NCBI GenBank assembly: GCA_026224875.1 | Contig: JAMFRU010000089.1 | Span: 1 to 50,258 of the forward strand | From: Acidocella sp. | Lineage (GTDB): Bacteria > Pseudomonadota > Alphaproteobacteria > Acetobacterales > Acetobacteraceae | DNA: 50,258 bases | Direction: 5' to 3' | Shown here: piece by piece, positions 18,406-42,389 of the stretch | How positions within the stretch are numbered: the stretch's first letter is position 1 | Layout of the letters: each line of letters opens with the position of its first letter | Made by a program: the position numbers and the translations under genes | Notes under the pieces: model-generated | The model's database searches: none | What the model saw: only the letters and a program-made list of their open reading frames with translations | Told to the model about the DNA's origin: nothing

Positions 18406-18906
18406 CTAATGGGGGTCCGGGGCCTCAGGCCCCGGCGGGTGCAGGGCAGCGCCCTGCGACTCTTCCTTCAAAGCTGCGGCCTCCTGCTCCGCCTTTAACG
18501 CCGCGGCTTTGGACTCAGCCGTCAAATCGCGCGCTACTTCCGCTTTGTGCAGCAGTTTGTTGATTTTGGTCGCCTGCTCCAGCGCCTCGTCCTTTACAAA
18601 CTTCAGCTCGGGCGACACCCGCAGCCCCAATCGTGGCGCGATCTGCGCCCGCAAAAACGGCGCGACACGCTTCAACGCCGGCAACAAAGGCGTAATATCC
18701 TTGTGCCCCAGCACAGTCGCGAACACGAGCGCGTGCCGCAAATCCGGCGACATGCGCACTTCGGACACGGTCAATTTCTCGCGCGCGAGCACCTTGTCGT
18801 GGAACTCGGTGCGCAGAAGCGCATCCGCGAGCGCATGCCGGATTTCCTCGCCCACACGCAGCTGGCGCTGCGAGGGGGTGTTAGGCTGGGACGATTTCGG
18901 TTTCAT
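18406..18906 (-). CDS. rbfA: 30S ribosome-binding factor A
   Basis: Assists late maturation of the 30S subunit and 16S rRNA 5' end. 166 residues from ATG 18906; a longer frame to 18969 overlaps infB further. The KH-like core runs from RVGEEIRHALADAL to RLGLRVSPELKFVKDE. A 40-residue Ala/Glu-rich tail follows, ending GAALHPPGPEAPDPH. Those last residues are encoded by a GC-rich palindromic repeat (about 18409-18462), so the gene has been extended by an intergenic element. The start overlaps the end of infB by 26 bp. truB, a common next gene, is absent. Confidence 0.93.
   Translation of the reverse strand: MKPKSSQPNTPSQRQLRVGEEIRHALADALLRTEFHDKVLAREKLTVSEVRMSPDLRHALVFATVLGHKDITPLLPALKRVAPFLRAQIAPRLGLRVSPELKFVKDEALEQATKINKLLHKAEVARDLTAESKAAALKAEQEAAALKEESQGAALHPPGPEAPDPH
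18409..18462. repeat. half-copy of the cloverleaf element, inside the rbfA 3' end
   Basis: Contains CCGGGGCCTCAGGCCCCGG and the adjacent GGGGGT, closely related to hairpin block A of the elements at 35805 and 41021. A second small palindrome, GCAGGGCAGCGCCCTGC, is beside it. The central stem, loop and block B are missing. It may act as the rbfA operon terminator. Confidence 0.65.
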
Positions 18907-21634
18907 AGCACTCGACCACGTCGCCTTCACGCAGATCCTGGAAGCCCGCGAACGACAGGCCACATTCATAACCGCGCGCCACTTCCTTCACATCGTCCTT
19001 GAAGCGCTTGAGCTGGCTGAGGTCGCCCTGATGGATGACCACGTTGTCGCGCAGCAGGCGCACGCCGCAGCCGCGCTTGACCAGACCTTCGGTGACATAG
19101 CAACCCGCGACCTTGCCGGTCTTGGTGATGTTGAACACCTGGCGGATTTCCGCGTAACCCAGGAACTTCTCGCGATGCACTGGGGCGAGCTTGCCCTTGA
19201 CCAGTTTCTCGATGTCATCGGCGACTTCGTAGATGATCGAGTAGTAGCGGATATCCACGCCTTCGCTCTTGGAGAGCTCACGGGCCTGCACATTGGCGCG
19301 CACGTTGAAGGCGACGACGATGGCGTCCGACGCTTTCGCCAGCTGCACATCGCTCTCGGTAATCTGGCCGACGCCTGAGTAGATGACGCGCACGCGCACC
19401 TCCTCGTTGCCGACCTTGGTGACGACCACGCTGATGGCTTCGGACGAACCCTGCACATCGGCCTTGACGACGATCGCCACTTCCTTCTGTGCGCCGGCCT
19501 GAATACGGGCCAGCATTTCGTCCATCGTGCCACGGCCGGCGGTTTGCGCGGCGGCCTGGCGGTCGCGCAGTTTTTGGGCGCGGTATTCCACAATCTCACG
19601 GGCGCGCTGCTCGTTCTCAACCACCACGAACGGCTCGCCAGCTGTGGGCGTACCGGACAGGCCGAGGATTTCCACCGGAGAGGAAGGTCCGGCCGATTTC
19701 ACGGGCTGGCCCTGGTCGTTGAGCATGGCGCGGACGCGGCCCCACTGGGCCCCGGCCACAACCGTGTCGCCCAGGTTGAGCGTACCCTTCTGCACGAGCA
19801 CGGTCGCAACCGGGCCACGGCCACGGTCGAGACGGCTTTCGATGATCGCGCCTTCGGCAGCGCGGTTCGGGTTGGCGCGCAGCTCGAGCACTTCGGCCTG
19901 GAGCACGATGGCTTCTTCCAATTTGTCGAGGCCGAGCTTCTTCAGCGCGGAAACTTCAACATCCTGGGTATCGCCGCCCATTTCCTCAACCACGATCTCG
20001 TATTGCAGCAGCTCCTGGCGGACGCGGTTGGCATCGGCGCCCGGGCGGTCGATTTTGTTGATCGCCACGATCAGCGGCACGCCGGCGGCCTGGGCGTGTT
20101 TGATCGCCTCGATCGTCTGCGGCATCACGCCGTCGTCGGCGGCAACCACCAGCACCACGATGTCGGTGGCGGCGGCACCACGGGCGCGCATGGCGGTGAA
20201 CGCCTCATGGCCCGGGGTGTCGAGGAAGGTGATCAGCGCGCCGGACGGGGCTTGCACCTGATAGGCGCCGATATGCTGGGTGATGCCACCGGCCTCGCCA
20301 GCTGCAACGGAGGTTTTGCGCAAGGCATCCAGCAGGCTGGTCTTACCATGGTCAACATGGCCCATGATGGTGACGACCGGCGGACGGATCTGCAGATCGG
20401 CATCGTCATCGACTTCGCCTTCGAGCCCGAGCTCAACGTCTGAGTCGGACACGCGGCGGGATTTATGGCCGAATTCGCTCACCACCAGCTCGGCGGTGTC
20501 GGCATCGATATCCTGGGTGATGGTCGCCATCACACCCATCTTCATCAGGGCGCGCACAACCTCGCGGCCGGGGGCGGCCATACGGTTGGCCAGCTCCTGC
20601 ACGGTGATGGTTTCGGGAAGAATAACCTCGCGGACGACTTTAACGCCATCGGCGCGCAGCAGTTCGAGCTCGGCCTGGCGGCGTTCGCGGTCACGCTGGC
20701 GGCGCACGGAAGCAAGGCTGCGCACTTTCTCGTCGGCACCCTCGAGGGCTGCCTGCACGTCGATACGTCCGCCGCGGCGGTTGCCGTCGCCGAGTTTTTT
20801 AACAGCCGGGACCGGCGCGCCGCGCTTGGGCGCAATGGTCGTCAGGCGGCGCACGCCACCGGGGCCACGCGGGGCCTCGTCGTCGTCTTCGGCGCCGGCG
20901 GGGCGTCCGCCGGGTTTCAGCTGCAATGTTTCGCGCACGGCGGGCGTTGCCGGGCGGGCAGGGGTTGCGGCCTGCGCGGGTCCGGGTGCGGGCTCCGCCA
21001 CGGGCAGCGGCACATGCTCGGTGCCGGCCAGCTCGGCGGCTTCGCGGGCTGCGGCCTCGGCTATGGCGCGGGTTTTGGCATCCTCAAGGGCCTGGCGGGC
21101 GGCATCCTCCTCGCGGCGGCGGGCCTCCTCGGCGGCGGAGAGAATGGAGATTTTTTCCTGCTCGCGGCGCTCGGCCTCGCGCTGGGCGGCCACGGCCAGC
21201 ACGCGCTGGCGGGTGGCCTGCTCACCAGCGGTGAGGGCGCGGTTGCCGGTGCCACCCTGGCGCGGGCGCACAAGCTGCGGCGCCGGCGGGGCGAGGGTTG
21301 CGGCCGGACCCGGCGCCGGGCCAGGGGACGTAGTGGGGGCAGCGGTTGCGGCTGCGGGGCGCTCGGTGTGCTCAACGCGCTCAGCCGCGGCTGGGCTCGC
21401 GGCGGCTGGGCTCAGGGCAAGAGTAACAGGCGCTGCTGCCGGGGCAGGGGCTGCGGCAGGCACTGGGCCCAGGCCGCGCTTTTTGCGCACTTCCACCTGC
21501 ACAACCTTCGAGCGGCCATGCGAGAAACTTTGCCGGACGGAACCGGCATCGACAGTATGCCCTGCATCGCCGCGCGCCACCGGGCGCAGCGACAGCCTGC
21601 CTTTGGTTTCATTCTGGTCGTTGCCGTCACTCAT
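18881..21634 (-). CDS. infB: translation initiation factor IF-2
   Basis: GTPase that brings initiator tRNA to the 30S subunit. 917 residues from ATG 21634; an upstream in-frame start at 21655 is less likely. A long Ala/Pro/charged N-terminal region (to about 330) is followed by the IF2-N fold [18 protein letters not shown] (first part [10 protein letters not shown]), G1 GHVDHGKT near residue 425, [21 protein letters not shown] and SALKKLG. Domain IV ends [20 protein letters not shown] (first part GYECGLSF). Fourth gene of the rimP-nusA-ylxR-infB-rbfA operon. Confidence 0.97.
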
Positions 21635-34703: not shown

Positions 34704-35804
34704 TTACGTGCCGCCCTTTGGTTGCTGCTGGGTGATGCAATGGATATTGCCACCCCCCAGCAGAATTTCGCGCGCCGGCACCATAACAATGTCACGTCCG
34801 GGAAACAGCCGGGTCAGCACATCGCGCGCCGCCGCATCCGTCTCCACGCCGAAACCCCCGCCACCAAAAGAGGGCGCAATTATTGCGCCATTCGCGATAT
34901 AAAAATTCACGTAGGATGCCGCCATGCGGTCGCCCGCGCGCCGGTTCATGCCCGAAGGTGTTGCATCGAGCCCGCTAACCTCCTCGGCGGTGTAGAACAT
35001 CGGGGTGGGCATGGGGATGCGCTCCACCTTGATCGGCCGCCCCTTGGCATCACGGGCTGCCAGCAGCCGCGCCTCGGCATCGCGGCTCACCGCATAATGC
35101 GGGTCCGCAGGGTCGTCGCACCAGGTGAGCAGCACCACGCCGGGTGCCACAAAACAGGCGAGGTTATCGACATGCCCGTCGGTCTCATCCTCCGGCACGC
35201 CCTGGCCCAGCCAGATAACATGGCTCGCACCCAGATAATCCTTGAGCACCCGCTCCATCTCCTGGCGCGTCGGGTTCTCGTTACGGTTCTCGTTCAACAC
35301 ACATTGCTCGGCCACCAGCACGGTGCCCTCGCCATCCACATGGATTGCCCCGCCTTCAACCACGTTGGGTGCCCGGAACCGCCGCGCCCGCTCAATGCCC
35401 AGCATTTTCGCGGCCACCTGATCATCCAAATCCCAGGGAAAATACAAGCCGCCAATCAAGCCGCCCCAGGCATTGAACGGCCAATCAACCCCGCCCAACT
35501 TACCGTCACGCCCCAACAAAAACGAGCACCCGACATCGCGCGCCCAGCTGTCGTTAGTGCTGACCTCAACCACCCGCACCGCCTCAGGCAAAACAGTCCG
35601 GGCATTCTCAAACTGCCGCGCACTCACCATCATCGTAACAGGCTCATACCGTGCAATGGCACTGGCCACCGCCACAAAAGCCCCCTGCGCCGGCTTAGCC
35701 CCCAACCGCCAATTATCCGGCCGCTCCGGCCAAATCATCCAACACCCCGCATGCCCGGCCCACTCCGCCGGCATGGCAAACCCGGCTTCCCGCGGTGTGG
35801 TCAT
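34704..35804 (-). CDS. aguA: agmatine deiminase
   Basis: Agmatine to N-carbamoylputrescine plus ammonia. 366 residues. MPAEWAGHAGCWMIWPERPDNWR (first part MPAEWAGHAGCWMIW), DSWARDVGC, VEGGAIHVDGEG, DGHVDNLACF and the catalytic cysteine in LLGGGNIHCITQQQP fit the guanidine-modifying fold. The ATG abuts the large palindromic element 35805-36059. Upstream of it there is no Shine-Dalgarno sequence, only the element's arm (AGGTCTTCCTC). So the element separates aguA from aguB and probably affects its translation. Confidence 0.94.
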   Translation of the reverse strand: MTTPREAGFAMPAEWAGHAGCWMIWPERPDNWRLGAKPAQGAFVAVASAIARYEPVTMMVSARQFENARTVLPEAVRVVEVSTNDSWARDVGCSFLLGRDGKLGGVDWPFNAWGGLIGGLYFPWDLDDQVAAKMLGIERARRFRAPNVVEGGAIHVDGEGTVLVAEQCVLNENRNENPTRQEMERVLKDYLGASHVIWLGQGVPEDETDGHVDNLACFVAPGVVLLTWCDDPADPHYAVSRDAEARLLAARDAKGRPIKVERIPMPTPMFYTAEEVSGLDATPSGMNRRAGDRMAASYVNFYIANGAIIAPSFGGGGFGVETDAAARDVLTRLFPGRDIVMVPAREILLGGGNIHCITQQQPKGGT

Positions 35805-36059
35805 GAGGAAGACCTGGGGGCTGCGCCCCCTTGCCCCCTACGAGGGCTCCGCCCCTCGCCCCCGCTGGGGCCTGAGGCCCCAGACCCCCAACAATCGGGT
35901 TTGGGAAGGGGATGCCCTGCATGGGCTTTCCACGCGCACGGGCGTGACAGGGCATCCCCTTCCCAAACCCGGGTGGGATCCAAGGGCCCTTCGGCCCTTG
36001 GTGGGTCCAGGGCGGAGCCCTGGTAGGGGGCAAGGGGGCGCAGCCCCCAGGTCTTCCTC
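35805..36059. repeat. cloverleaf-like palindromic element 1
   Basis: Outer perfect 37-bp arms (35805-35841 and 36023-36059). Hairpin block A (35865-35895, CTGGGGCCTGAGGCCCCAG plus ACCCCCAACAAT). A perfect 24-bp central stem (35896-35919 with 35948-35971) closing a 28-nt loop that holds TTCCACGCGCACGGG (35928-35942). Hairpin block B (35969-36001, with CCAAGGGCCCTTCGGCCCTTGG around its 20-base core). Small palindromes GAGGGCTCCGCCCCTC and CCAGGGCGGAGCCCTGG flank the inner parts. The element fills exactly the space between the aguB stop and the aguA start. No protein is encoded. Confidence 0.9.
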
Positions 36060-36951
36060 ACAACCGCACCGCGGGAGACCGGGTGGTGCCATCTAGCGTG
36101 AGCAGGGGGGTGTACAGCTCGGGGCGGCGGTCGCGGAATACGCCCCAGCCGTTGCGGATGGGGGCTATGTGGTCGAGGTCGAATGTTGCGACCAGGACTT
36201 GTTCTGTTGAGCGGTCTGCTTCCTGGATTTTGGCGCCGTAGTGGTCGGCTATGAAGGAGGAGCCGTAGAAGGTTATGCTGGTGCCGTTTTTACCGTCCTC
36301 GGTGCCGATGCGGTTGGAGGCGATTACGGGTGTGAGATTGGCGCCGGCGTGGCCTTGCATGGTGCGTTGCCAGTGGCCGGCGGAGTCTATGCTGGCGTCC
36401 AGCGGTTCGGAGCCGATGGCGGTGGGGTAGAATAACAGCTCGGCACCCATCAGTGCCATGGCGCGGGCGCATTCGGGAAACCACTGGTCCCAGCAGATGC
36501 CCACACCGATTTTCGCGTGTTTGGTGTTCCACACTTTGAATCCGGTATCTCCTGGGGAGAAATAGAATTTCTCGGAATAGCCTGGCCCGTCGGGGATGTG
36601 GGATTTGCGGTAGTGGCCCATGACGGTTCCATCAGCATCGATGATGACGACGGTGTTGAAATTGCTTTGCCCGGCGCGTTCGTACACCGAGATCGGCAGC
36701 ACGACGTTGAGCTCTTTGGCGACGGCTGAGAAATGTTTCACGGCCGGGTTTTCATCCAGAGGTTTCGCCAGGCTCAGCAGATCGTAGATTTCATCCTGGC
36801 AGAAATACGGGCCCTCGAAAAGTTCCTGGATGAGAATGATCTGCGCGCCTTTGCTTGCCGCCTCGCGGATCAGCTTTTCCGCGCGCGCGATGTTTTCAGC
36901 GCCACTCGAGGAACATGCCATTTGCGTGGCGGCAACGATAACCTGTCTCAT
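36058..36951 (-). CDS. aguB: N-carbamoylputrescine amidase
   Basis: N-carbamoylputrescine to putrescine, CO2 and ammonia. 297 residues of the nitrilase superfamily. The catalytic triad is visible: E43 in LIQELFEGPYFC, K in GHYRKSHIPDGPGY and C in GVGICWDQWFPE. The family motif YPTAIGSEP follows. AAGGACG precedes ATG. Spacing to the upstream glutamine-synthetase-like gene is 10 bp. The stop codon overlaps the first bases of the palindromic element. Confidence 0.95.
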   Translation of the reverse strand: MRQVIVAATQMACSSSGAENIARAEKLIREAASKGAQIILIQELFEGPYFCQDEIYDLLSLAKPLDENPAVKHFSAVAKELNVVLPISVYERAGQSNFNTVVIIDADGTVMGHYRKSHIPDGPGYSEKFYFSPGDTGFKVWNTKHAKIGVGICWDQWFPECARAMALMGAELLFYPTAIGSEPLDASIDSAGHWQRTMQGHAGANLTPVIASNRIGTEDGKNGTSITFYGSSFIADHYGAKIQEADRSTEQVLVATFDLDHIAPIRNGWGVFRDRRPELYTPLLTLDGTTRSPAVRL

Positions 36952-36961
36952 ACGCTCGTCC

Positions 36962-38353
36962 TTATGCTTCGGTCAGATAGGCATCATATTCCACATCGGA
37001 GATACGCTTGCGCATTTCCGAAATCTCCTGGCGTTTGCAAGCGGTATAGAGACGCTGGAACTCTTCGCCGAAAATTTTTCCGATCACTCCCGATCTCGCG
37101 AATTTATCCACAGCTGTCGACCAGGCGATGGGCAGCGGCGGCGCGCCCTTGGCGCGTGTCAGGCCGAAACTCTCAACCCCAGGGTCGGCTTTTTCTTCCA
37201 GCCCGATCAGCGCAGAGCCGAGCAGCGACGCAAAGGCAAGATACGGATTGCAATCCGCGCCCGCGACGCGATGTTCTACGCGGGAAGCCGCAGGGTCCGC
37301 GGTAATAACGCGAAGGGCCGCCATCCGGTTGTCGTGCCCCCAATCGCCATAGGTCGGCGCATGTACGCCGGGCGCGAAGCGGCGGTAGGAATTGGCATGC
37401 GGGGCGAGGGTCAGCATGGTATCCGGCATGGCGCGGATGATGCCGCCCACCGCATGATACAACCGCTCCGAGCCACGCTCCGGTGTGCCCACAAAAATAT
37501 TGTTGCCGGCCTCATCCAGCACGGACATATGCACATGCATGCCCGAGCCCGCGCATTGCCCATAGGGCTTGGCCATGAAGGTGGCGGTTAGCCCATGCTT
37601 GCGCGAAATCTCCTTGATCGTGCGCTTGAATAACGTCGCATGGTCGGCGATGAGCAGCACGTCGGTGCTATATTTCAGCGTTACTTCAAACTGCCCGGGC
37701 CCGTTTTCGGAAACCAGCGTTTCCAGCTTAATGCCCTGTATCTTCGCGGTGGTCATCAGCTCGCGCAAAATCGGCTCATATTCGCGGATTTCGCCAAGGC
37801 CCACGGCATCCACATGCCAGCCGCGCCAGCCGGATTCATCGGCGCCGCGCGGGGCGATCGCCATGCCGCCGTGCTTGCCCGTATCGACGAGGTAGAACTC
37901 AAGCTCCACACCCATGGCAGGCTGCAGCCCCGCCGCCTTATAGCGGTCCAGCACGTTGGACAGCACGCCGCGCGGGTCGAGGCAGAAATAGCTGCCATCG
38001 GCCTCGCGCATCGTCAGCAGCGCCTGGGTCACATTGCCTTCGGTCCAGCCCATGCGGGTGATGCTGTGCGGCACGGCGGTACAAATACCGTCAGGGTCGC
38101 CGGTGTCCTGGGCAATGCCGCCTTCGATAATGTCATTGCCCCAGATATCGAGCAGATAGACCGAGCGCGGCATGGCGATGCCGTTGCCGAGCAAGGCTTT
38201 CGCCTTCTCCGGCTGCAGCCATTTGCCGCGCAGCACGCCGTTCACATCCACCGCGAACGCTTCAACAAAATCGCTCTGCGCCATGAGCGCCGCTTTGGTG
38301 GCAATCATTTCTGCCGAAGTGTGCATCTCTGCCGTATCTGGTGCGGAACTCAC
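36962..38353 (-). CDS. glutamine-synthetase-like ligase, probably gamma-glutamylpolyamine synthetase
   Basis: 463 residues of the GS fold. FVEAFAVDVNGVLRGKWLQP (first part FVEAFAVDVNGVLRGK), GVELEFYLVD, MAKPYGQCAGSGMHVHMS (first part MAKPYGQCAGSGMH), HANSYRRFAPG and EHRVAGADCNPYL resemble the PuuA/SpuI group, not GlnA. No adenylylation tyrosine motif is visible. Context with putrescine genes supports gamma-glutamylation of putrescine. GTG 38353 overlaps the aminotransferase stop as GTGA; ATG 38326 is an alternative. Confidence 0.85.
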   Translation of the reverse strand: MSSAPDTAEMHTSAEMIATKAALMAQSDFVEAFAVDVNGVLRGKWLQPEKAKALLGNGIAMPRSVYLLDIWGNDIIEGGIAQDTGDPDGICTAVPHSITRMGWTEGNVTQALLTMREADGSYFCLDPRGVLSNVLDRYKAAGLQPAMGVELEFYLVDTGKHGGMAIAPRGADESGWRGWHVDAVGLGEIREYEPILRELMTTAKIQGIKLETLVSENGPGQFEVTLKYSTDVLLIADHATLFKRTIKEISRKHGLTATFMAKPYGQCAGSGMHVHMSVLDEAGNNIFVGTPERGSERLYHAVGGIIRAMPDTMLTLAPHANSYRRFAPGVHAPTYGDWGHDNRMAALRVITADPAASRVEHRVAGADCNPYLAFASLLGSALIGLEEKADPGVESFGLTRAKGAPPLPIAWSTAVDKFARSGVIGKIFGEEFQRLYTACKRQEISEMRKRISDVEYDAYLTEA

Positions 38354-39729
38354 AATGCCACCTCATCCTTCACCTTGTCATAGGTCTGGCCGACAGATTT
38401 TTTAAAACGCGCAACGAGGATATCGATTTCCGCTTCCGAAATGGTCAGCGGCGGTGAGAACAGCATGGTGTCGCGCGTGGCCCGCATGATCAGTCCGTTT
38501 TCGATGCAAAAGTCGCGGCAGATGGTGCCCACGCTGCCGACTTTACCAAACGGTTTGCGCGTGCGTCTATCCGCCGTCAGCTCGATGGCGCCGATCAACC
38601 CGACGCCACGGATTTCACCCACCATAGGGTGATCGCCAAGTGCCTCGATCATCTTCCGGCGCAACAGCTCCCCCTTTGGTCCGGCCGTTTCCACCAGCTT
38701 CTCATTCTCAAGAATATCCAAATTCGCCAGCGCCACGGCGCAGGAAACCGGATGACCAGAATATGTAAACCCGTGATAATATTCGCCGGTCTGGTTGATC
38801 ATCACCTCGGCAACGCGGTCGTGCACCAGCAAAGCCGAGAGCGGGATATAGCCCGAGGTCAGCCCCTTCGCGGTGGTGATCATATCCGGCTTGATCCCGA
38901 AATAATCGGAGCCGAACCATTTGCCGGTGCGCCCGTAGCCGGTGATCACCTCATCGGCGATCAGCAATATATCATGCTCCTTGCAAATCCGGTTGATCTC
39001 GGGCCAGTACGTCTCCGGCGGAATGAGCACGCCGCCCGAGCCTTGAATTGGCTCGCCGATGAAGGCGGCGATATTGTCAGCGCCCAGCTCGAGAATCTTC
39101 TTCTCAACCTCGAGTGCTGCGTAAACCCCGAACTCTTCCGGGCTCATCTGCCCGCCTTTGCCATACCAATAAGGCGGCAGCACGTGATGGAAATTCGGCA
39201 TGTCGCCGGCCTGGCGGTGCATATCCTCCATCCCGCCGGCCGAAGCGCCGAGTGTGGTGGACCCATGATAGCCATACTCCCGGCCGATCACGTGCTTCTT
39301 GTTGGGCTTGCCCAAAGTCTGCCAATAAACCCGCGCCGTCCGCAGCGCGGAATCCACCGCTTCCGAGCCCGAACAGGCAAAGAAAACATGGTTGATCCCA
39401 TCCGGTGCCAACTGCGCCAAACGCTGTGCCAGCAGCACCGCCGGCTGGTTCGTGGTTTTGAAAAACGTGTTGTAATACGGCAGTTTGGTCATCTGCGCGG
39501 CGGCGGCATCCACCAGCTCTTTGCGGCCATAACCGGCGGCGACGCACCACAGCCCAGCCATGCCGTCCAGAATCTCATTGCCATCGCCATCGCGCAGAAA
39601 CACGCCCTGCGCCTCGGTAATCACCCGCACCCGGCGGGCGTGCAAATCCTTATGGTCGGTAAAAGGGTGCAGATGATGCGCCGCATCCAGCCCCTGCCAA
39701 TCCACAGTGTCATTTATAATATCAAGCAT
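38350..39729 (-). CDS. class III aminotransferase, probably putrescine-pyruvate type
   Basis: 459 residues from ATG 39729, with GGAG upstream; a longer frame to 39927 adds a non-family leader. HHLHPFTDHKDLHA, DGMAGLWCVAAGYGRKEL (first part DGMAGLWCVAAGYG), the FFACSGSEAVDSALR motif, YGYHGSTTLGAS, IADEVITGYGRTG and the PLP lysine in TTAKGLTSGYIP are present. It resembles SpuC, which moves the amino group of putrescine to pyruvate. First gene of the operon with GS-like, aguB, aguA and permease. Alanine dehydrogenase at 41.3 kb could recycle the alanine formed. Confidence 0.88.
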   Translation of the reverse strand: MLDIINDTVDWQGLDAAHHLHPFTDHKDLHARRVRVITEAQGVFLRDGDGNEILDGMAGLWCVAAGYGRKELVDAAAAQMTKLPYYNTFFKTTNQPAVLLAQRLAQLAPDGINHVFFACSGSEAVDSALRTARVYWQTLGKPNKKHVIGREYGYHGSTTLGASAGGMEDMHRQAGDMPNFHHVLPPYWYGKGGQMSPEEFGVYAALEVEKKILELGADNIAAFIGEPIQGSGGVLIPPETYWPEINRICKEHDILLIADEVITGYGRTGKWFGSDYFGIKPDMITTAKGLTSGYIPLSALLVHDRVAEVMINQTGEYYHGFTYSGHPVSCAVALANLDILENEKLVETAGPKGELLRRKMIEALGDHPMVGEIRGVGLIGAIELTADRRTRKPFGKVGSVGTICRDFCIENGLIMRATRDTMLFSPPLTISEAEIDILVARFKKSVGQTYDKVKDEVAL

Positions 39730-40011
39730 GGTATTTACTCCGTATCTGTAACAAAATAGCCCGCGCGCGTGGCGTAACCAGCCGCGCGGGGTAGAAATCG
39801 TTAGATACGGGGCGGGCTGAAGCCGATGCGTGCGCAGAGAATGAGCATCTCTGCTTCCAAATTCAGCGCAGCAATGTGGGCTGCTATAACCATGGCCAAC
39901 TCTCGCATGGCGGCAGGAACCGTTCAAGAAATATTTGTTAATAAAGCTTCAGCCGAGGCAAAAATCCTCTACCACTTGCCCCAGACACAGATGATGCGGC
40001 ACAAGCGCCCC
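39730..40011. promoter_or_regulatory. 282-bp divergent region before the aminotransferase and WD40 genes
   Basis: No gene found that I would support. Moderately AT-rich around 39720-39760 and 39920-39970. Both operons start here. No clear palindromic operator or sigma boxes were recognised. Confidence 0.35.
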
Positions 40012-41022
40012 ATGTCCGAACGCACTGCAGACCTCGACCAGCTCCTGGAATCCCGCGGCAAAACCGCCCAGCTCGGCGCCTATGTCACCGCCGCCTGTTT
40101 TTCCGCCTCCGGCCAGGCCGCCTTCGCGCTTGGCGACGGCACCATCCGCCTCGGCCCCGATTTCACCCAAATCCAGGCGCATGGCGGCGCCGTGCTGAGC
40201 CTGGCCCCCCACCCGCTGGGCGGTTTTTGCTCCGGCGGCGATGACGGCCGCCTGGTTCACACCACGGATAAACCCACCGAAATCGCTAAATTCGGTTCCA
40301 AATGGGTCGAACAACTGGCCGTCTTCGGCGGTAAAACCCCCCTGATTGCCGCCGGCGTAGGTAAGACGGTACATCTTTTCGACGGCAAAGGCGGAGCAAA
40401 AATACGCGAACTCGCCCACCCCAGCACCGTCACCGGCATTACCTTCGACGCCAAAGGCAAACGCATCGCCGCCTCGCATTATAACGGCGCCTCCCTCTGG
40501 TTCACCGGCAGCACCGCCGCCCCCCGCGTGCTCGACTGGAAAGGCAGCCACACCGGCATCGCCATGCACCCCGAAGGCCAGGCCCTCGTCACCTCCATGC
40601 AGGAAAACTCACTGCACGGCTGGACCCTGCCCGAAGGCAAACACATGCGCATGGCCGGCTACCCCACCAAAACCGAATCCATGGGCTTCACCAAATCCGG
40701 CCGCTGGCTCGCCACCGCAGGTGCCGAAAGCGTCGTCCTCTGGCCCTTCTTCGGCGGCGGACCCATGGGCAAAGCCCCCACAGAACTCGGCATGGGGGAC
40801 GGCATCGTCCGCCGCATAGCCTGCCACCCCCAACACGAAGTGGTAGCCGCAGGCTTCGACACCGGCCTAACCCTGCTCATCAACATAGCCCAGGAACAAA
40901 TAATCCCCCTATGCGGCCCCGGAAGAGGCGCAATAACCGCCCTAGCCTGGAGCCCCACCGGCAGCCACCTAGCCATTGGCACCGAACCCGGCTTCGCAGC
41001 CCTCATCGATTTTACGGGTTAA
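40012..41022 (+). CDS. WD40-repeat protein
   Basis: 336 residues from ATG 40012. Repeats are seen as alternating blades such as GAVLSLAPHPLGGFCSGGDDGRL (first part GAVLSLAPHPLGGF), STVTGITFDAKGKRIAASHYNGASLW (first part STVTGITFDAKG), KTESMGFTKSGRWLATAGAESVVLW (first part KTESMGFTKSGRWL) and ITALAWSPTGSHLAIGT. They give a beta propeller of about seven blades. No signal peptide, so probably cytoplasmic scaffolding; the partner is unknown. Upstream in-frame starts exist at 39826, 39991 and 39994, so the N terminus is not firm. The stop codon TAA touches the palindromic element 2. Confidence 0.8.
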   Translation: MSERTADLDQLLESRGKTAQLGAYVTAACFSASGQAAFALGDGTIRLGPDFTQIQAHGGAVLSLAPHPLGGFCSGGDDGRLVHTTDKPTEIAKFGSKWVEQLAVFGGKTPLIAAGVGKTVHLFDGKGGAKIRELAHPSTVTGITFDAKGKRIAASHYNGASLWFTGSTAAPRVLDWKGSHTGIAMHPEGQALVTSMQENSLHGWTLPEGKHMRMAGYPTKTESMGFTKSGRWLATAGAESVVLWPFFGGGPMGKAPTELGMGDGIVRRIACHPQHEVVAAGFDTGLTLLINIAQEQIIPLCGPGRGAITALAWSPTGSHLAIGTEPGFAALIDFTG

Positions 41023-41265
41023 CCCTCGTTCGGGGAGTGACTCGCAAGGGGACTTTGTCCCCCTGCACCCCCTACCAAGGGCCGAAAGGCCCTTGGATCC
41101 CACCCGGCTCTAAAAGAGAGAGGCCATCCCGTGCTCGTGGAACACACGTGCTGGAATGGCCTCTCTCTTTTAGAGCCGAATTGTTGGGGGTCTGGGGCCT
41201 CAGGCCCCAGGCAGGGGGTGCAGGGGGGCAAGGCCCCCTTGCGAGTCACTCCCCGAACGAGGGTT
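41021..41265. repeat. cloverleaf-like palindromic element 2 (opposite orientation to element 1)
   Basis: Outer arms 41021-41073 and 41213-41265 (53 bp, three transitions, outer 30 bp perfect). Block B (41075-41107) and block A (41180-41210) are the reverse complement of those in element 1: 33 bp with one difference, and 31 bp identical. The central stem is 23 bp perfect (41105-41127 with 41156-41178) around a 28-nt loop. Its end 41128-41142 is the complement of TTCCACGAGCACGGG, one base off the core of element 1. It joins the two convergent stop codons and probably terminates both transcripts. Confidence 0.9.
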
Positions 41266-42389
41266 TACCCCGCAAGTCCGAGGAGGGTTTCGGCCGTGTG
41301 GTAGGGGCGGCCGAGGGCTTCGGCTACGGCGGCGAAGGTGATTTTGCCTTCGGCTACGTTTAGGCCGTTTCTGAAATTCTTGTCGTCGCTTAGGGCTTGG
41401 CGCCATCCTTTGTCGGCCAGTTTCAAGGCGTAGGGCAGGGTGGCGTGGTTTAGGGCGAAGGTGCTGGTGCGGGCTACGGCGCCGGGCATGTTGGCCACGC
41501 AATAGTGGACGATGCCGTCGACGATATAGGTGGGGTCTGAATGGGTGGTGGCGTGGCTGCTCTCGAAGCAACCGCCCTGGTCGATGGCGACGTCCACCAG
41601 CACGGCGCCGGGGCGCATGTGCTTCAGCATGGCGCGGGTGACGAGTTTGGGGGCGGCGGCACCGGGCACGAGCACGGCGCCGATGATGAGGTCCGCGCCG
41701 AACACGGCTTCTTCCACGGCTTCGGTGGTGGAGTAGCAGGTTTTCAGATGCGGGCCGTAGAGGTCGTCGAGCTGGGCCAGCCGGGCGAGGGATTTGTCGA
41801 AAATCGTCACGTCGGCGCCCATGCCGTGGGCGATGCGCGCGGCATTCGCGCCCACCACGCCGCCGCCGAGCACCACGACTTTGCCGGGCGGCACGCCGGG
41901 CACGCCGGCCAGCAGCACGCCGCGCCCGCCATTGGCTTTTTGTAAGCTGACAGCGCCAACCTGCACGGCCATGCGCCCGGCCACTTCGCTCATGGGGGCC
42001 AGCAGCGGCAGGCGTCCGGCGGCATCGGTCACGGTCTCGTAGGCAATGGCGATGGCGCCCGAGGCTTCGATCAGTTTCGCCTGTTCCGGGTCCGGCGCGA
42101 GGTGGAGGTAGGTGAAGAGGATTTGCCCCTGGCGCAGCATTTTGCATTCCTGCGGCTGCGGCTCTTTCACCTTCACCACCATCTGCGCGCGGGAAAACAC
42201 TTCGGCGGCCGTGTCCACAATCTCGGCTCCGGCTTTAATGTAGGCCTCATCCGGCGCATCGATGCCGGCACCGGCATTTTTTTCCACCAGTACCTGGTGC
42301 CCGTGTGCCTTCAGCTCGCGCACTGATGCCGGGGTAAGCCCGACGCGGAATTCATTGTCTTTGATTTCACGAGGCAAGCCGACGAGCAT
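41265..42389 (-). CDS. ald: alanine dehydrogenase
   Basis: NAD-dependent interconversion of L-alanine and pyruvate plus ammonia. 374 residues. [44 protein letters not shown], the Rossmann motif [20 protein letters not shown] (first part [12 protein letters not shown]), [18 protein letters not shown] (first part [13 protein letters not shown]) and [20 protein letters not shown] (first part [10 protein letters not shown]) are typical. AGGAGA precedes ATG. It could recycle alanine made by the pyruvate-dependent putrescine aminotransferase. Confidence 0.97.

Follow-up and report, generated by a model that had tools for sequence, protein, structure and literature searches.

Among described repeats, the closest to those reported here are the REPINs, doublets of repetitive extragenic palindromic (REP) sequences, and the bacterial interspersed mosaic elements (BIMEs). 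PMC3116915 presents them as extragenic palindromes in which two conserved blocks surround a variable, compensatory stem, with singlets occurring as well. REP palindromes bear a GTAG- or CGTC-type tag at one end (PMC3733652), and their frequent location between convergent genes has been reported (PMC1525189). We analyzed a window of 50,258 nucleotides (nt) from Acidocella sp. (contig JAMFRU010000089.1 of assembly GCA_026224875.1, positions 1 to 50,258 of the forward strand), which carries two nested palindromes, element 1 (35780 to 36084) and element 2 (41016 to 41270), neither assigned to a strand. A sequence-only reading of this DNA had stated that no named element has their plan, which is too strong, since the REPIN plan is close and a "clover" fold is mentioned for REPINs in the same source (PMC3116915). 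The family to which the two elements belong is nevertheless unlike REPINs and BIMEs in being larger and nested, in having arms that run into flanking open reading frames (ORFs), and in that block A differs from block B in the class found in the window.

Quasipalindrome correction is known as a mutational process, mainly for short repeats. In this process, an imperfect hairpin is perfected by copying one arm from the other through strand misalignment (van Noort 2003 and Ripley 1982, as cited in the available portion of PMC6649704); this is the same kind of mechanism as the one proposed below, although in the present case it would act on long elements of one family and on the genes beside them. 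The palindromes of Nematomorpha mitochondria, as far as the same portion describes them, have near-perfect arms with changes matched on both sides, as ours do, and their authors discuss repeat conversion and template switching. They lie inside mitochondrial coding genes, however, and no dispersed modular family is described in that portion, whereas the family reported here is modular, mostly intergenic, and located in a bacterial chromosome (PMC6649704). In Volvox carteri, palindromes inserted into palindromes likewise give larger, elaborate repeats, but these occur in organelle DNA, their loops are often TAAA or TTTA, and no comparison of orthologous arms is described in the available portion of the source (PMC2670323). 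Literature searches on nested palindromes, hairpin elements, REP mosaics, template switching, concerted arms, SbcCD, and terminators returned no title describing the present family.

Elements 1 and 2 belong to a large family of nested palindromes that are about 200 to 300 bp long and hypervariable. The outer arms of element 1 (35780 to 35854 and 36010 to 36084; 75 nt, 92% complementary) extend on either side some 25 nt beyond the limits given by the sequence-only reading, so that the far left arm is formed by the first codons of one gene and the far right arm by the last codons of another. The former (34704 to 35804, minus strand) we take to be aguA-like, encoding agmatine deiminase, and the latter (36058 to 36951, minus strand) is presumably aguB-like, encoding N-carbamoylputrescine amidase; both names are assignments from the protein sequences. 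The records of the relatives of aguB carry no gene names, and the top ones with an organism name are mostly alphaproteobacterial. Between the arms lie the left mini-hairpin h1 (35842 to 35857, plus strand; GAGGGCTCCGCCCCTC), block B (35865 to 35894, plus strand; a hairpin of CTGGGGCCTGAGGCCCCAG and ACCCCCAACAA), a central stem-loop (35896 to 35971, no strand assigned) whose perfect 24-bp stem (35896 to 35919 paired with 35948 to 35971) closes a 28-nt loop, block A (35972 to 36001, plus strand; GGTGGGATCCAAGGGCCCTTCGGCCCTTGG), and the right mini-hairpin h5 (36007 to 36023, plus strand; CCAGGGCGGAGCCCTGG).

Element 2 sits between a presumably WD40-like gene (ending at 41022, plus strand) and a presumably ald-like gene (ending at 41265, minus strand). 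It has outer arms at 41016 to 41092 and 41194 to 41270 (77 nt, 86% complementary), block A at 41075 to 41104 (minus strand), a central stem-loop at 41105 to 41178 (no strand assigned; 41105 to 41130 paired with 41153 to 41178, 26 nt, 96%), and block B at 41181 to 41210 (minus strand). Folded as single-stranded DNA, elements 1 and 2 are 18.4 and 21.5 standard deviations, respectively, below dinucleotide shuffles, with 0 of 200 shuffles as stable in either case, and the predicted fold of both is an outer stem closing a three-branch junction, as the sequence-only reading had proposed. Arm pairing and folding thus bear out its description of two near-completely folding palindromes that have hairpin blocks in common and differ in their stems, and the one-base difference in the loop core, TTCCACG[C/A]GCACGGG, is indeed in the sequence. 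The shared blocks are nearly identical as it had said, but its counts (31/31 for A and 32/33 for B) become 30/30 for B and 29/30 for A under our own delimitation. The outer arms of element 2 are not unique to it, and matches that take them in were found at C89:13606 in the genome of the window and at C59:246403, C26:25332, and C63:100755 in the sister species. No match was obtained for element 1 among plasmid records or for element 2 among phage records, and an Rfam search of window positions 35500 to 41600 gave no match at gathering score, the nine matches with E up to 1 all being to sub-threshold microRNA-precursor models.

We determined the size and distribution of the family in draft genomes, of which that of the window (G000) is 95% and that of the sister species (G013) 94% complete. 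The core of element 1 had 52 matches in its own genome at E up to 0.01. An 18-base B core, allowing up to two mismatches, matched 66 times and a 27-base A core, allowing up to three, 33 times, while the same patterns read backward matched 0 times each, indicating that the repeat matches are not due to chance. A longer B pattern was found 67 times in G000 and 93 times in G013, but only 0 to 6 times in the remaining 35 genomes of the genus searched and in none of 24 genomes of other families; the A pattern occurred in 3 of 385 genomes of the class, including G000, and only once in each of the other two. From one end to the other, the copies are built of an outer arm, a mini-hairpin, block B, a central stem-loop, block A or another hairpin, a second mini-hairpin, and a second outer arm. 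Among 65 B blocks read, 52 had a stem of 12 bp or longer next to them on the 3' side (in one or more cases, including L049 on the plus strand, this stem comes from another repeat family), 5 were truncated, and 8 lacked such a stem, three of these having an imperfect stem (L029, L046, and L071) and five resembling half-elements.

Searching for B combined with a 3' block yielded 138 candidate readings (62 in G000 and 76 in G013). We removed ten in which the main stem had fewer than 25 paired bases: element 1 itself (a perfect stem, but of 24 pairs), one half-element, another copy read with a shift, and chance pattern hits. Double readings were then merged, leaving 114 copies (53 in G000 and 61 in G013). 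At least 57 of these belong to the class of the window, whose blocks A and B are not inverted versions of each other; a different class has a 3' block that nearly equals B inverted.

The central stems of these copies vary in sequence and remain paired. The lower 20 bp is perfect in 94 of the 114 copies and has at most one mismatch in 109, so that 19 or 20 of the 20 positions pair, and yet there are 75 different 5' arms, and the 5' arm of one type matches the 3' arm of another at only 8.1 of 20 positions on average. Two copies only, blocks found everywhere with the stem missing, or many copies with nonpairing stems, any of which the sequence-only reading had thought adverse to a structured element, are thus not what the genomes contain. 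Among 88 type pairs differing at no more than three pair positions, which are not independent of each other, 166 differences were present on both arms and 25 on one, and one type pair carried an identical 1-bp deletion in both arms. Only 36 of 2,280 positions were non-Watson-Crick, including 8 G.T and 11 A.C, and perfect types one step apart were separated by 12 transversions and 6 transitions (the type pairs again being nonindependent). Since evolution through G-U intermediates in one RNA strand predicts the opposite bias, the similar rarity of G.T and A.C and the predominance of transversions argue against stepwise RNA compensation in one strand.

We then compared the sites with their orthologs. 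G000 provided 79 site readings, in which some sites are counted once per strand; for 14 of them, the two flanks were present together on a single piece within the 1.87 Mb of G013 covered. The full cluster was present in both species at eight sites, the site of element 1 was empty in the sister species, sites 63 and 66 held a simple hairpin there, and sites 48 and 49 held other DNA. At site 37 (L260 in G013), about 2.6 kb of other DNA splits the orthologous cluster inside the element. At the eight shared sites, the best 20-bp arm pair matches at 18 to 20 of 20 positions within each species, whereas the same arm compared between species matches at only 14, 13, 11, 12, and 13 of 20 positions at sites 13, 19, 26, 38, and 58, respectively. 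The central stem is thus clearly different between the species at five of the eight orthologous sites. Site 13 is element 2, where the sister species has CGGCTTATAAAAAGAGGGCC and the window CGGCTCTAAAAGAGAGAGGC, each paired by its own 3' arm; the sister species moreover has an extra hairpin inside the loop of block B. The orientation of the inner part is reversed between the two species at site 58, as read by eye.

At the locus of element 1 (site 1), 25 of 30 genus loci were readable, and besides the element of the window, there was a different hairpin cluster in G007 and a cluster of about 83 bp in G028, while the spacer was about 30 bp or less in the other 22 loci. The cluster in the aguB/aguA spacer of G007 (L156) is itself nested and carries an A-like block in the opposite orientation.

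The copies lie mostly at or beside gene 3' ends, and their outer arms often extend into locus-specific DNA and into the neighboring genes. We scanned the arms, up to a limit of 75 nt, in the 84 of 114 copies that have an A run and a T run of at least 3 on the two sides and enough flank, a loose pattern applied without a chance control. The matched outer arm had a median of 14.5 nt within a copy and 7 nt between copies and was at least 20 nt long in 33 of the 84. An ORF of 100 or more codons has its stop codon inside the arm on one side or both in 32 of these 33, and on both in 18; this count was made without a control from longest ORFs, some of which may be spurious. At element 1, 19 of 22 bases agree between the end of aguB and the start of aguA read inverted, with a score of 13, while the same comparison gave scores of only 5 to 9 in 24 other members of the genus (the aguB stop was not located in L171 and L179, and a few members have only an approximate edge for aguA). 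As judged by eye, the compared genus genomes have similar aguA starts, so that aguB is likely the recipient of the copied sequence. From this comparison, the end of aguB appears to have been overwritten by copying from the start of aguA.

The explanation that we favor, at a probability of about 0.6, is that these are REPIN/BIME-like nested palindromes kept complementary by DNA-level copying from arm to arm, with hairpin modules being exchanged between copies. It builds on the family itself, on the concerted variation of its arms, on the central stems replaced at some orthologous sites, and on the arms running into ORFs. One arm would repeatedly be rewritten from the other at the DNA level, in place of pair-by-pair compensation under selection on RNA, by strand or template switching at the hairpin during replication or by gene conversion between arms. 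The copying tract would run out of the element into unique flanking DNA, and this would give rise to the locus-specific outer arms and to the apparent overwriting of the aguB end. Hairpins sit inside the loops of other hairpins, and modules such as the central stem and the mini-hairpins may be exchanged between copies. Arm-to-arm copying would thus account by one process for matched changes of every type, for locus-specific arms, and for the changed end of aguB. We infer the copying itself and its enzymes, and termination of transcripts would be a by-product function of the clusters. The sequence-only reading had left the choice between selected structure and a copying mechanism that regenerates arms; the lack of a wobble excess and the surplus of transversions favor the latter, selection on a hairpin read in both directions being the less probable alternative.

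Several results weigh against arm-to-arm copying. Central stems are similar in both species at three of the eight orthologous sites (17, 19, and 18 of 20 positions of the same arm at sites 32, 57, and 62). The fraction of perfect stems is conditioned, as copies lacking a recognizable 3' block or having fewer than 25 paired bases in the main stem did not enter the set. Equal G.T and A.C counts could also result from selection on a hairpin read both ways. The tip above the lower stem is not homogenized, and two of its positions pair at no more than chance, so that copying would have to stop below the tip. Selection for mismatches at the tip was considered and rejected: among 32 distinct variants, one position slightly avoids pairing (8 against 13.6 expected), and two others do not. 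The outer arms gave a mixed outcome at 11 orthologous sites delimited by named anchors. Over 25 nt, identity was 0.824 within a copy and 0.787 between species, the former being higher at 8 of 11 sites, but over 40 nt, the values were 0.757 and 0.756, with 6 of 11 sites higher within the copy; sites 58 and 62 were clear cases, while sites 38, 57, and 63 went the opposite way at both lengths. Finally, many of the G000 copies lie at contig ends of a draft, and the lack of SbcD discussed below is genus-wide and thus leaves the two rich species unexplained.

Alternatively, the family could be a REPIN-like nonautonomous mobile element, in which A and B would be single-stranded hairpin ends recognized by a transposase acting in trans, the stem a spacer, and the matching of arms a by-product of single-strand transposition. 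Such a plan, with two conserved hairpin blocks, a variable compensatory stem, and half-elements corresponding to singlets, is close to that of REPINs (PMC3116915), and abundance in two sister species with near-absence from the other 35 genus genomes searched, as well as the missing element 1 at the orthologous site of the sister species, also speak for it. We nevertheless consider this unlikely, although it is not far-fetched. The Y1 transposase model PF01797 had 0 matches in G000 and G013, which sets these genomes apart from those of REPINs and BIMEs and led us to reject mobilization by a Y1/RAYT transposase; one match each was found in 5 of 38 genus genomes, none of them copy-rich. We therefore do not claim REPIN membership. 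In addition, the class of the window lacks an inverse relation between A and B, even if the other class comes close to one, the ends are not fixed but vary in arm length and sequence from locus to locus, and orthologous copies change internally without moving. Spread to new sites, on the other hand, needs something beyond arm-to-arm copying.

A somewhat weaker case can be made for selected RNA structure, that is, for terminators or 3'-end RNAs read in both directions, whose pairing is kept by selection on the hairpin, paired stem changes being usually read as the sign of such selection. A crude gene caller allowed 80 of the 114 copies to be classed (34 were unclassifiable), and 40 of these were convergent, 36 tandem, and 4 divergent, compared with 371 convergent, 947 tandem, and 369 divergent among 1,687 gene pairs in the DNA of the sister species (Fisher's test, P = 9e-8 for the convergent excess and P = 7e-5 for the divergent deficit). 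Simple hairpins with A and T tracts, moreover, stand at orthologous sites 66 and 63 in G013 and, as an ordinary hairpin, at site 62 in the more distant G016, so that some clusters sit where a relative has a terminator-like hairpin; in other species, the genes flanking sites 62 and 66 were mostly far apart or on different contigs, G016 being the one read at site 62. The DNA of the sister species contains ten such simple hairpins, eight of them with the CAGGG-type core of the family. Against this stand the absence of a wobble excess and the predominance of transversions over transitions among paired differences, arms that run through ORF stops, which a terminator does not need, and the place of element 1 between codirectional genes, which lie no more than 30 bp apart in 22 of the 25 genus genomes that could be read. 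Flanking A and T runs, seen with the loose pattern in 84 of the 114 copies, are absent from the ends of elements 1 and 2 themselves, and a simple terminator scan, in which long stems are not modeled, has no hit at either of them. We thus regard this explanation as doubtful.

An assembly or amplification artifact that folds contigs back on themselves would suit the 20 of 53 G000 copies that lie close to a contig or locus end and so have a side with no gene called, and perhaps L067, which has the longest near-perfect arms, but it is very improbable, given that other copies are internal to contigs (e.g., L247, L267, and L300 of G013) and that the same module family stands at orthologous positions in the assembly of another species with a different sequence.

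Returning to arm-to-arm copying, we considered a more far-reaching form of it, in which the palindromes maintain themselves with no enzyme of their own: once a strong hairpin had formed, replication-coupled copying between arms would keep it perfect, extend it outward into nearby genes, and bring in modules of other copies, so that structure is inherited and sequence is not. This remains speculative, and we give it a low chance of being correct. Lack of SbcCD is known to spare long palindromes. In favor of arm-to-arm copying as such, an SbcD model gave nothing over the cutoff and one weak match in 38 genus genomes, while 13 of 14 control genomes matched, and the genus would therefore be permissive for long palindromes. 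As this holds for all 38 genomes, loss of SbcCD as the trigger in the two rich species is not supported. An SbcC model, with weak matches in 30 of 38 genus genomes and only 1 of 14 controls over the cutoff, is uninformative.

Related units were seen elsewhere. A half-element, consisting of the B hairpin and lacking both the central stem and A, lies in the window at 18410 to 18433 (minus strand), within the 3' end of an ORF (18406 to 18969, minus strand) that is presumably rbfA-like and whose last residues it seems to encode. A second palindromic family, GTCATTGCGAGC...GCAATGAC with arms of 32 to 33 nt, was noticed in G013 (L216:9873-9954, L221:11798-11875, L224:18038-18119, L232:18880-18962, and L253:17949-18029), and one copy of it adjoins a half-element in G000 (L049). 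Inverted repeats of a third kind, 120 to 144 bp long and with the stretch GTATAGTGGTGATTT in common, occur in G013 at L235:455-598, L240:2207-2326, and L246:16480-16622. At three contig ends of G000 (L035, L043, and L072), the same stretch of about 70 bases runs straight into the tip of a B hairpin; this stretch may be the terminus of an insertion sequence with the hairpin as its target.

If arm-to-arm copying is correct, the family would be a natural counterexample to the usual reading of covariation, in which paired changes with no wobble bias arise from DNA copying, documented in two species, at orthologous sites, and in more than 100 copies. It would also be a case of palindrome arms growing into genes and rewriting the end of a protein in a bacterium.

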